DNA from: Candidatus Zixiibacteriota bacterium
GTDB lineage: Bacteria > Zixibacteria > MSB-5A5 > SM23-73-2
Assembly (NCBI GenBank): GCA_030615745.1
Contig: JAUWYR010000045.1
Span: forward strand, 1 to 19,886
DNA length: 19,886 bases
Reading direction: 5' to 3'
Of this stretch, positions 17,669 to 19,886 are shown piece after piece. The stretch's first letter is position 1; every line of letters starts with the position of its first letter. Below the pieces are notes generated by a model. It did no database searches and was not told the DNA's origin. It saw nothing but the letters and a program-made list of their open reading frames with translations. The position numbers were made by a program, and so were the translations under genes.

Positions 17669-18367
17669 TTATCTTCCGATCATTATCTTGGGATCAGTCC
17701 ATGTGTCATTGTTCTGCATCAAAAAGTCTATAAAAGCATCATCTTTATACTCATCTGCTGATATATTATTTTTTACCGAAATCTTATTCCACAAGTTCCA
17801 GGGAGTTGCTATCGTCGGATTCTTTGCGATAAAAAGGTCATGCTCAGGGTTATTAAAATCAGATGCTCTGTGCCACTGGAGTTGGTCTATTGGTAAGTCC
17901 AGAATGGTAGCTGAATAATATGTTTCCAGATTTTGTGTGGGAGAATTAGAGGAGCTAAGGTCTTCAAAGCCCTCGAAGTGTATGACTACATCAACGTTGC
18001 TTTTAATAGTGCCAACTAAGCATTTAGCTGCATAATCCCCCGAACGTCTCACATTCCAGCTCCATTGTGTAGCTGAAAGAGAATAGCTTATCCATGGGCA
18101 CGTAGACTTTGCTTGTGAAATTAGTTGATAATCTAGCATAATAGGAGTTATTATCTGAGGGTGCTTAGGATTAACTAAAATCGAAAAGGGAACTTCGACT
18201 TTGTCGTTGCCCTTTAATGGGCTTTGAAACCTAAGACTGTCATTTGTGTTAAAAGTTCCTTTATACCTATCTTCAGCTTGAACAGTTAAAGAAGATAAAA
18301 TAATAACAGCAATTATTACTAAAGGGATACTGCCTAAAATTATTGTTTTTTTATGCATATAAACCAT
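17669..18367 (-). CDS. Small secreted protein, paralog of the one at 15904 (family unknown)
   Basis: This 232-residue protein has an N-terminal hydrophobic segment (IILGSIPLVIIAVIILSSLT) ending VQAED, a signal peptide with likely cleavage near residue 31. The core (92-124) starts WISYSLSATQWSWNVRR and continues SGDYAAKCLVG; it aligns residue by residue with the gene at 15904 (17 of 33 identical). C-terminal parts also match (NLWNKISV; ADEYKDDAFIDF). It has only two Cys (90, 116). Neither the ATG at 18367 nor the one at 18358 (residue 4) has a clear ribosome site. It lies 69 bp before the SPGYWKNQ gene in the same direction. No family is recognised. Confidence 0.7.
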   Translation of the reverse strand: MVYMHKKTIILGSIPLVIIAVIILSSLTVQAEDRYKGTFNTNDSLRFQSPLKGNDKVEVPFSILVNPKHPQIITPIMLDYQLISQAKSTCPWISYSLSATQWSWNVRRSGDYAAKCLVGTIKSNVDVVIHFEGFEDLSSSNSPTQNLETYYSATILDLPIDQLQWHRASDFNNPEHDLFIAKNPTIATPWNLWNKISVKNNISADEYKDDAFIDFLMQNNDTWTDPKIMIGR

Positions 18368-18607
18368 CGTTATTTTTGTTCATACAAATATAGAATCTCC
18401 TTTTTAAGGCAATAGCTAAAACAACTTTTTTAGGGATTTGAAGCAGTGCGAGGTGTCACTTCAAGTCCCCCTCCCCTCTCTACTTGGTCCCTCAAAAGTT
18501 ATAAGTAAAGCATTTATAGATTTTTGTCAAGTAAAATTTTAAAAAAAATGCATTTTTTTTGCCGAAAATTACAATATTCCCCAAAAAATAGCATATTTTA
18601 GCCATAT
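18368..18607. other. Intergenic region with a weak promoter and a hairpin
   Basis: A perfect TTGACA -35 box on the minus strand (18530-18525) has no well-placed -10 (TATAAC follows after 21 bp). An imperfect 11-bp stem, GGGATTTGAAG (18433-18443) with CTTCAAGTCCC (18459-18469), encloses a 15-nt loop. It sits in the leader of the secreted-protein gene at 17669. No T-run follows it on either strand, so it is not a typical terminator. Confidence 0.35.
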
Positions 18608-18865
18608 TCAGATTATCAGACCGTCCTTTTCAACCACCTTCCTTTTCGATACCAAAAGTAAAAAAGGGATGACCCAACAAAAGTAGCCAAAACAATAGCC
18701 CAACACAGAATCAGTTGAATTCTGCAAAAACCAACTAATGTCTAATTTACCCCTCTTTTGCCCGGATAGCAGACGTTCTCGTCTTCGCGCGCCTACCCAT
18801 GTTTTATATGGGTAAGGCATGATTGCCATAGAAAAAGCTACCTTTGCTTTCGCTTTATAAAGCAT
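18608..18865 (-). CDS. Small membrane protein of unknown function
   Basis: This 85-residue protein begins at an ATG (18865) with AAAGGTGATT (18871-18880) upstream and a good promoter (TTGACA at 18939-18934, TATCTT at 18916-18911) ahead of it. The N-terminal half is basic (KAKAKVAFSM then RRRERLLSGQKRGKLD). The second half holds one membrane-spanning stretch (GYCFGYFCWVIPFLLLV) followed by SKRKVVEKDG. This resembles a small inner-membrane protein with basic residues on both sides. The region 18791-18818 also forms a hairpin within the gene. I do not recognise the family. It may be real because of its signals, but the composition is unusual. Confidence 0.45.
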   Translation of the reverse strand: MLYKAKAKVAFSMAIMPYPYKTWVGARRRERLLSGQKRGKLDISWFLQNSTDSVLGYCFGYFCWVIPFLLLVSKRKVVEKDGLII

Positions 18866-18910
18866 TCTCTAATCACCTTTAATAACTAAATTCACCCACG
18901 TCCATAATCC

Positions 18911-18979
18911 AAGATACAATCTTAAAAGATACCTGTCAATGCCCATAATATACGTAACAATTACGTAGCCGTCATACGT
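18911..18979 (-). promoter_or_regulatory. Promoter module A for the 85-aa gene (TTGACA plus ACGT boxes)
   Basis: On the minus strand TTGACA (18939-18934), 17 bp spacer, then TATCTT (18916-18911). Upstream are ATTACGTA (18960-18967) and TCATACGT (18972-18979). Upstream of the response-regulator gene the boxes ATTGCGTA and TCATACGT occur at identical distances from the -35 (27 and 39 bp). An extra TACGTAA (18951-18957) makes an inverted repeat with TTACGTA (18961-18967). Confidence 0.6.
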
Positions 18980-19158
18980 GATGATGTTCCTTTCTTATCT
19001 CTCTAAATTATGTACATTTAGCAAGAGTTGACAATGTTTATTTTCTGAACAGTGCTCATGGACCTTTTGAAGTCGAACAAAGTCTACTTGGTTCAGGTTA
19101 GTCAAAGAACTTTCCCTTCTGCCTTCTCCACTGGTATTCATTATGCCATTATTCAGAT

Positions 19159-19539
19159 TTATGCTTTAATACTAAGCAATTCCTTTACTTTTTCTTTCAA
19201 TCTCGTCAAATCAGATGATTTTACAAGATAGCTGTTGGCAAGCCACGTTAGTAAATTGTCCTTATAAATGGAATAATTCGAATACAATATCACTGGAATC
19301 TTGACTTTTTTGGCCCTGATTCGTTTCAAAACCTCGATACCGTCCAATGAGGGCATCTTAATATCGAGAATAATTAAGTCAACATGGGGATGCTTGTTTA
19401 TGAACTGCAAGGCTTCCGCACCTGAAGATACTGAGCTTGTAATATAGCCCTCGTTTCGCAGTCCCCTCTCGCATAGCAGCCGAACATTCTCGTCGTCATC
19501 GACTAAGAGTATTGTTTTGTTTTTACTCATTTTAGACAT
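19159..19539 (-). CDS. Single-domain response regulator (CheY-like receiver)
   Basis: This receiver domain has no output domain; length from the ATG at 19539 is 126 residues. Acidic pocket VDDD (14-16), phospho-acceptor Asp59 in LIILDIKMP, Ser87 in PVILYSNY and Lys107 in YLVKSSD fit the phosphotransfer pattern (CheY Asp57/Thr87/Lys109). The frame is open to an ATG at 19581, but that lies between -35 and -10 boxes (TTGACA at 19588-19583, GATATT at 19566-19561), so transcription probably begins downstream. An ATG at 19530 is an equal alternative. Neither has a strong ribosome site. It could act as a stand-alone phosphorelay or a partner of a distant histidine kinase; no kinase is visible here. 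Confidence 0.85.
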   Translation of the reverse strand: MSKMSKNKTILLVDDDENVRLLCERGLRNEGYITSSVSSGAEALQFINKHPHVDLIILDIKMPSLDGIEVLKRIRAKKVKIPVILYSNYSIYKDNLLTWLANSYLVKSSDLTRLKEKVKELLSIKA

Positions 19540-19560
19540 ATCTGAATTATCGCTAAGTTC

Positions 19561-19628
19561 AATATCAGGGAAAAAAATCATCTGTCAATACTAATAGTTA
19601 CCTTAGTGATTGCGTAACTCTCATACGT
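19561..19628 (-). promoter_or_regulatory. Promoter module B for the response regulator (TTGACA plus ACGT boxes)
   Basis: On the minus strand TTGACA (19588-19583), a 16-bp spacer, then GATATT (19566-19561). Upstream boxes ATTGCGTA (19609-19616) and TCATACGT (19621-19628) match module A at 18911-18979 at identical spacing. It overlaps the outermost in-frame ATG of the response regulator and so decides the start. Confidence 0.6.
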
Positions 19629-19763
19629 AAAGAGCATTTCGGAGAATCTTAGAAATCAACAAACCGTTTTCTGCTTGCAAAACATAAACTTACGCAGTTC
19701 AGAAACCGCCTATTTCGCTTCTCGATTGGTGCTAACATATCTTTAAAGTTAATTTTTATTGAT

Positions 19764-19791
19764 TTGAGACGAATATTAGTTATATTAATAT
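19764..19791 (+). promoter_or_regulatory. Possible promoter of the right-edge gene
   Basis: TTGAGA (19764-19769), 16-bp spacer, TAATAT (19786-19791), about 50 bp before the ATG at 19843. Both boxes match consensus only partly, in very AT-rich DNA. Confidence 0.35.
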
Positions 19792-19842
19792 TGAGATCGC
19801 AGGGAATTTGTTTCTAATTACATATCTCAAGAGGTGATCAGG

Positions 19843-19886
19843 ATGTCATCCAAGAAAAAAGGAGTTAAGCAAACAAAAGCAAAGAA
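19843..19886 (+). CDS. Start of a plus-strand gene, cut by window edge
   Basis: ATG at 19843 with GAGGTGAT (19831-19838) four bases upstream. The 14 visible codons give MSSKKKGVKQTKAK, a Lys-rich start without a signal peptide. It could be a nucleic-acid-associated or basic protein, but too little is visible to say. The promoter-like boxes at 19764-19791 and the strong ribosome site support it as real. Confidence 0.6.
   Translation, partial: MSSKKKGVKQTKAK

Follow-up and report, generated by a model that had tools for sequence, protein, structure and literature searches.

Two conserved four-box promoters in a Zixibacteria genome and their probable control by a FixJ-like regulator

Judged from their conservation and layout, two short modules (A and B) in the DNA analysed here are real, conserved promoters, and both are very probably controlled by a FixJ-like regulator that is encoded a few kb away. 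Module B precedes the gene for a single-domain receiver, and module A lies about 650 bp further along the minus strand, beyond that gene. The window, by which we mean the whole stretch of 19,886 nucleotides, is contig C14 of the source genome (G000), and it was compared with SM23_73_2 (G001), which belongs to the same genus, and with SM23_81, a third species. To our knowledge, gene regulation in uncultured Zixibacteria is little known. The comparison yields a model of the site, names a regulator family and lists target promoters, all of which can be tested in vitro without culture. It also illustrates how relatives can lead from a pair of boxes noticed by eye in 20 kb to a regulator.

Promoter modules in the window and in close relatives

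On the minus strand modules A (ACGTATGACGGCTACGTAATTGTTACGTATATTATGGGCATTGACA) and B (ACGTATGAGAGTTACGCAATCACTAAGGTAACTATTAGTATTGACA) have in common the pattern (T)ACGTA-N7-TACGYA-N22-TTGACA, which is followed 16-17 bp on by a -10 box (Table 1). An earlier note on this DNA had described three boxes in each module at offsets of 27 and 39 bp, and these offsets are exact (boxes at 18933/18960/18972 and 19582/19609/19621). The TTGACA -35 box and the -10 candidate 16-17 bp downstream that it had proposed are likewise present in both modules. Its boxes are thus rightly placed, but the unit of three was too short, as the conserved unit has a third and a fourth CGTA box between the pair and the -35 box. 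Boxes 3 and 4 are degenerate in the source genome.

Table 1. Features of the locus (positions are those of the window unless a contig is named)
Feature	Position	Strand	Remarks
Duplicated 3' end of MATE transporter gene, 100 bp	18606..18705	-	95% identical to C34:3785-3884
85-aa ORF ('membrane protein')	18608..18865	-	probably not a gene
Stretch downstream of promoter A	18750..18905	-	conserved with G001, 69% over 18750-18979
Candidate -10 of promoter A, TATCTT	18911..18916	-	17 bp after TTGACA; TATATT in G001
Module A, candidate regulator-binding array and -35	18934..18980	-	conserved in G001 at 979-1023
Module A boxes	CACGTA 18980-18975; TACGTA 18967-18962; third box TACGTA 18956-18951; -35 TTGACA 18939-18934	-	
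Single-domain receiver (CheY/Spo0F-like) gene	19159..19539	-	PF00072 4.3e-24; 63%-identical G001 ortholog
Candidate -10 of promoter B, GATATT	19561..19566	-	16 bp after TTGACA; TATATT at same G001 place
Module B, candidate regulator-binding array and -35	19583..19629	-	nearly unchanged at orthologous G001 place
Module B boxes	TACGTA 19629-19624; TACGCA 19616-19611; weaker GGTAA 19602-19598; -35 TTGACA 19588-19583	-	
Sensor histidine kinase gene, start	19843..19886	+	divergent from receiver gene; continues on contig C34
Receiver-PAS-GerE regulator, 408 aa	C34:2469-3695		directly after histidine kinase gene

The receiver protein encoded downstream of promoter B keeps both the phospho-acceptor aspartate (LIILDIKMP) and the conserved lysine (YLVKSSD). 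The first ATG of its ORF (19581) lies upstream of the -10 box, and the start is therefore probably 19539 or 19530.

Over the 47-base span of the earlier note the two modules agree, without gaps, at 32 positions. This is above all 300 shuffles of the local 1.4 kb, but the best pairs in Markov copies of the 20-kb window reach 31-33, so that 32/47 is chance level at that scale. Identity alone is therefore no proof, which is supplied instead by the relatives. Both modules stand at orthologous places in SM23_73_2, and module B also in SM23_81; conservation of the boxes in related genomes, which the earlier note had set as a check, is thereby borne out. In SM23_73_2 the pattern of that note occurs with no mismatches upstream of the receiver ortholog and with two mismatches downstream of that gene. 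The intergenic DNA around the boxes has drifted between the two genomes, with ACGTATGAGAGTTACGYAATCACTAWGGYAACTATTAGTATTGAC of module B nearly unchanged. SM23_81 has ACGTAGCGCCGCTACGTA-N22-TTGACAG before its receiver ortholog, with identical spacings, and its locus likewise has the divergent kinase, together with a regulator of 81% identity. On this comparison, modules A and B are at least genus-old, and three species keep kinase, regulator, divergent receiver and boxed promoter together as one unit.

The conservation also bears on how the two modules came to resemble each other. A bound regulator, rather than a recent duplication, had been suggested as the reason, and this agrees with the findings that the modules are genus-old, that the boxes are kept while the DNA between them diverges, and that the motif is tied to one regulator family (see below). 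A recent duplication is rejected because both modules are present in SM23_73_2 and the spacing recurs in other families. The similarity could instead be what remains of a receiver promoter that was duplicated locally, without a shared regulator. Two similar promoters 650 bp apart would fit such an origin, as would a degenerate receiver-like ORF in SM23_81 at the place of module A, which makes an old duplication of the receiver gene possible. However, the boxes have been kept in two species while the DNA between them diverged, and the identical spacing recurs beside GerE genes in other families. This class-wide conservation largely refutes a remnant without a shared regulator, which we hold to be highly improbable, while an origin by duplication can coexist with a shared regulator.

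The motif across the class and its link to PAS-GerE regulators

Among 132 genomes of the class, ACGTA-N7-TACGYA-N22-TTGAC has seven exact matches in five genomes: G000 and G001 contribute two apiece, and G073, G075 and G077, from a different family, a single one apiece. The reversed-pattern control has none. With one mismatch allowed there are 29 matches, as against six for the reversed-pattern controls; the matches in G107 and G056 lie inside genes and were set aside as chance. The CGTA boxes of the aligned sites stand at offsets 1, 14, 25 and 36 (a spacing of 13/11/11 bp), the last of them abutting the -35 box, and their consensus reads atTACGTAtt-N5-TACGTAaT-N3-tacGtnAttTAntcgTATTGACa, in which boxes 1 and 2 make up the inverted repeat ATTACGTAT-N5-ATACGTAAT. 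Columns outside the search pattern are shared as well, namely a T before box 1, AT after box 2, and the third and fourth CGTA boxes.

A matrix was made from 21 sites of other families only, and was restricted to the columns absent from the search pattern. Ranked by this held-out matrix, module B falls in the top 0.017% of positions and module A in the top 0.15%. Two G042 matches with TTAAC and TTTAC were left out of the training. On the full held-out matrix the window sites score 31-33 bits, a figure that is circular in part, since these modules were the source of the search pattern. Support free of this circularity comes from the counts of pattern against control, the third and fourth boxes, the matrix of unspecified columns, the test of the -10 position and the adjacency to GerE genes. 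For the -10 position, hexamers matching TATAAT in at least four of six bases follow a 17-bp spacer in 15 of 26 sites, as against 0-7 at other distances. Most sites have TTGACA as their -35 box, and a spacer of 17 bp, the optimum, is the most frequent; sites of the f13 family have weaker -35 boxes (TTGCC/TTGTC). In these features the sites resemble ordinary sigma-70-type promoters that have an array upstream.

That the two modules are a chance resemblance of AT-rich promoter DNA could be argued from their identity, which is not unusual over a 20-kb window. The sites in the relatives speak against it, and the class-wide counts against controls and the held-out columns rule it out; we give this explanation practically no weight. 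Within the source genome a pattern search with up to three mismatches gave no third site above the control count, so that the visible regulon here consists of the two local promoters and holds no independent third target. The refuting conditions named by the earlier note thus have a divided outcome, with no further copy in this genome but with the boxes kept in related genomes.

In other families, a gene whose product combines PAS with a LuxR/GerE DNA-binding domain is found no more than about 200 bp from most of the sites. Eleven are -7 to 197 bp from such a gene (G064, G074, G094, G123, G128, G047, G055, G024, G077, G073, G075). These are plain counts from genomes that are not independent, as G073-G075 belong to one genus and G047, G055 and G024 to one genus; the link is found in families f10, f13 and f19. 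Sites that the pattern missed and only the matrix detected adjoin further homologs of the regulator (L102, L103, L114). The helix-turn-helix (HTH) domains of the adjacent regulators are of one type, with SK(E/D)I(A/S) and THK(H/Y)RE-x-IR-x-KL in all of them and I or V before HK. A search of the open-access literature found no PAS-LuxR regulator described with a TACGTA site.

The candidate regulator of the window locus is encoded on contig C34. The end of the window (19746-19886) and the start of C34 share an overlap of exactly 141 bases, which joins the contigs; C34 carries the kinase gene in full. The kinase has HisKA and HATPase_c domains in SM23_73_2, and an orthologous kinase gene lies directly upstream of the regulator gene in G000 and SM23_81. 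The regulator itself is 88% identical between G000 and G001, and the SM23_81 ortholog is 81% identical to that pair. Its N-terminus is a receiver domain (PF00072 in the G001 and SM23_81 proteins, the former being the one to which the G000 protein is 88% identical), and its C-terminus is a GerE HTH (PF00196 above cut-off in G000 and G001) that matches the RcsB, EL222 and NarL chains. A PAS domain at residues 142-251 lies between the two, which departs from a two-domain layout. The claim is therefore one of a GerE-type regulator working like FixJ, and not of 'a FixJ'. When GerE genes per genome were totalled for G000 and G001, the source genome was found to have only two GerE proteins, one at this locus and the other at C46:9957-10127.

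At the window locus the regulator gene is at least 2.8 kb from the sites, whereas in other families it is adjacent. In SM23_73_2 and SM23_81 the distance is 2.8-4.1 kb, with the kinase in between. This looser adjacency leaves some room for another DNA-binding protein at the modules, such as the GerE protein at C46:9957-10127 or an unrelated factor. We consider that very unlikely, given that the motif in other families adjoins GerE genes whose HTH matches the local regulator, and that kinase, regulator and receiver stay together in three species. In G007, of the same order, which has a regulator ortholog at 784 bits, the matrix found no site near the ortholog; distal sites are present. The suggestion that one factor serves both promoters has thus gained a specific candidate in the receiver-PAS-GerE protein, with the motif tied to one regulator family across the class.

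Predicted control of the two promoters and its closest counterparts

It is likely that the modules are sigma-70-type promoters activated by a FixJ/NarL-like factor, most likely the receiver-PAS-GerE protein encoded after the divergent kinase. What the sequences themselves show is conservation, spacing, the -35 and -10 boxes, the neighbouring genes and, in other families, the association of the motif with GerE genes; from this we infer binding, sign of regulation, phosphotransfer and feedback as follows. The histidine kinase would phosphorylate the receiver of the regulator, and dimers of the regulator would bind the inverted pair of boxes 1 and 2, centred near -68 from the predicted start. A second, weaker pair of CGTA boxes would reach the -35 box (about -51 to -37). 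By analogy with FixJ, two dimers would probably bind cooperatively around centres near -68 and -44, the second one in contact with the -35 box. The bound array would help RNA polymerase to start the receiver gene from promoter B and a short transcript from promoter A, and the single-domain receiver could in turn act on the kinase, either as a phosphate sink or as a relay.

The same binding might also serve repression, or repression and activation together, with the phosphorylated protein shutting off a constitutive promoter. The near-consensus -35 box of most sites would fit this too, as would the prevalence of the optimal 17-bp spacer and the contact of the fourth box with the -35 box. Every box, however, lies upstream of the -35 box in the activator zone, with none over the -10 box or the start; f13 sites carry the weaker -35 boxes; the strength of the -35 box is partly due to selection, since the search demanded TTGAC; and FixJ, which comes closest as an analogue, acts as an activator when bound to -69 to -31 of the fixK promoter (PMC4999443). 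Repression in either form is unlikely, and activation is, by this analogy, the more likely sign of regulation.

At the fixK promoter the regions protected by FixJ are -69 to -44 and -57 to -31, and one class of its SELEX sites, GTAMGTAG, contains a TACGTA-like core, GTACGTAG (PMC4999443). The FixLJ system of Rhizobiales, with its compound fixK promoter, is like the one proposed here in its histidine kinase, its LuxR/GerE-type response regulator and its very small regulon. Its binding region of about -69 to -31 consists of two overlapping parts, to which the boxes here would correspond by sequence position, if counted from predicted starts. Unlike FixJ, the regulator here has a PAS domain between receiver and HTH and would read four CGTA boxes at 13/11/11 bp, and it is predicted to control a receiver gene and a short transcript, with no fixK or nifA target seen. 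In NarL of E. coli, dimers of the GerE HTH bind inverted half-sites bounded by TAC...GTA, arranged as 7-2-7 heptamers (PMC4549865). The GerE HTH, the TAC...GTA-bounded sites and the inverted half-sites are all shared, but here the centres of the half-sites are 13 bp apart, 5 bp separate the 9-bp arms, and a PAS domain is present. EL222, a LuxR HTH linked to PAS/LOV, likewise combines a sensory PAS-type domain with a GerE HTH in one chain and matches the HTH in sequence. Unlike in EL222, a receiver precedes the PAS domain here, and several PAS/GAF domains do so in other families.

In other families the same promoter design precedes genes for ECF sigma factors (G073, G074, G075), BON-domain proteins (G047, G042), cupredoxins (G002, G024), an ArsC-like protein (G128) and a cytochrome c (G007). 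In G047, beside the PAS-GerE regulator, a two-mismatch site (L154 3071-3115) stands before a 116-aa ORF and an encapsulin gene, and CBS, LigD and ligase genes follow the BON gene. These neighbours may point to stress and redox control. We tentatively propose, as an idea with somewhat less than even chances, that a PAS-linked LuxR-type family reads one four-box CGTA promoter throughout the class, an undescribed code controlling stress and redox genes (ECF sigma factors, BON-domain proteins, encapsulin, LigD/ligase, cupredoxins and the ArsC-like protein). The window locus would then represent a reduced branch, with control limited to its own receiver gene and a new small transcript.

Promoter A and the 85-aa ORF

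The second target had been named as an 85-aa membrane protein, and this part of the earlier proposal is not sustained. The hydrophobic C-terminus of the ORF is the end of a MATE gene read in another frame; the 100-bp copy that supplies it lies about 5 kb from the intact MATE gene and is absent from the SM23_73_2 locus. The first 43 codons align with SM23_73_2 without gaps and have 19/16/14 substitutions by codon position, which is without bias; the receiver gene has 34/15/49, the distribution that selection on a protein should produce. The ORF has no Pfam hit. On these grounds it is probably not a gene, and what was probably a false membrane-protein gene is removed from the locus.

Downstream of promoter A a 15-nt block, AACGTCTGCTATCCG, is unchanged between G000 and G001, so that something conserved lies there. 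Promoter A has no clear protein-coding target, and its product may be a small RNA, a leader or a short peptide. The stretch has no Rfam match at the gathering threshold, and below it weak, chance-level matches to unrelated families; its fold is not unusually stable in both species. In SM23_73_2 the sequence downstream of promoter A (L050 1-700) consists of repeated units that carry strong Shine-Dalgarno sites, short ORFs and small hairpins. The receiver-like protein of SM23_81 (L089 1-456), at the place that promoter A has in the other two species, is degenerate, has no Pfam hit and apparently lacks the phosphorylation residues. On the minus strand of the window at 18500-18540, a further TTGACA with a -10-like hexamer, without CGTA boxes, precedes a 232-aa ORF (17669-18367).
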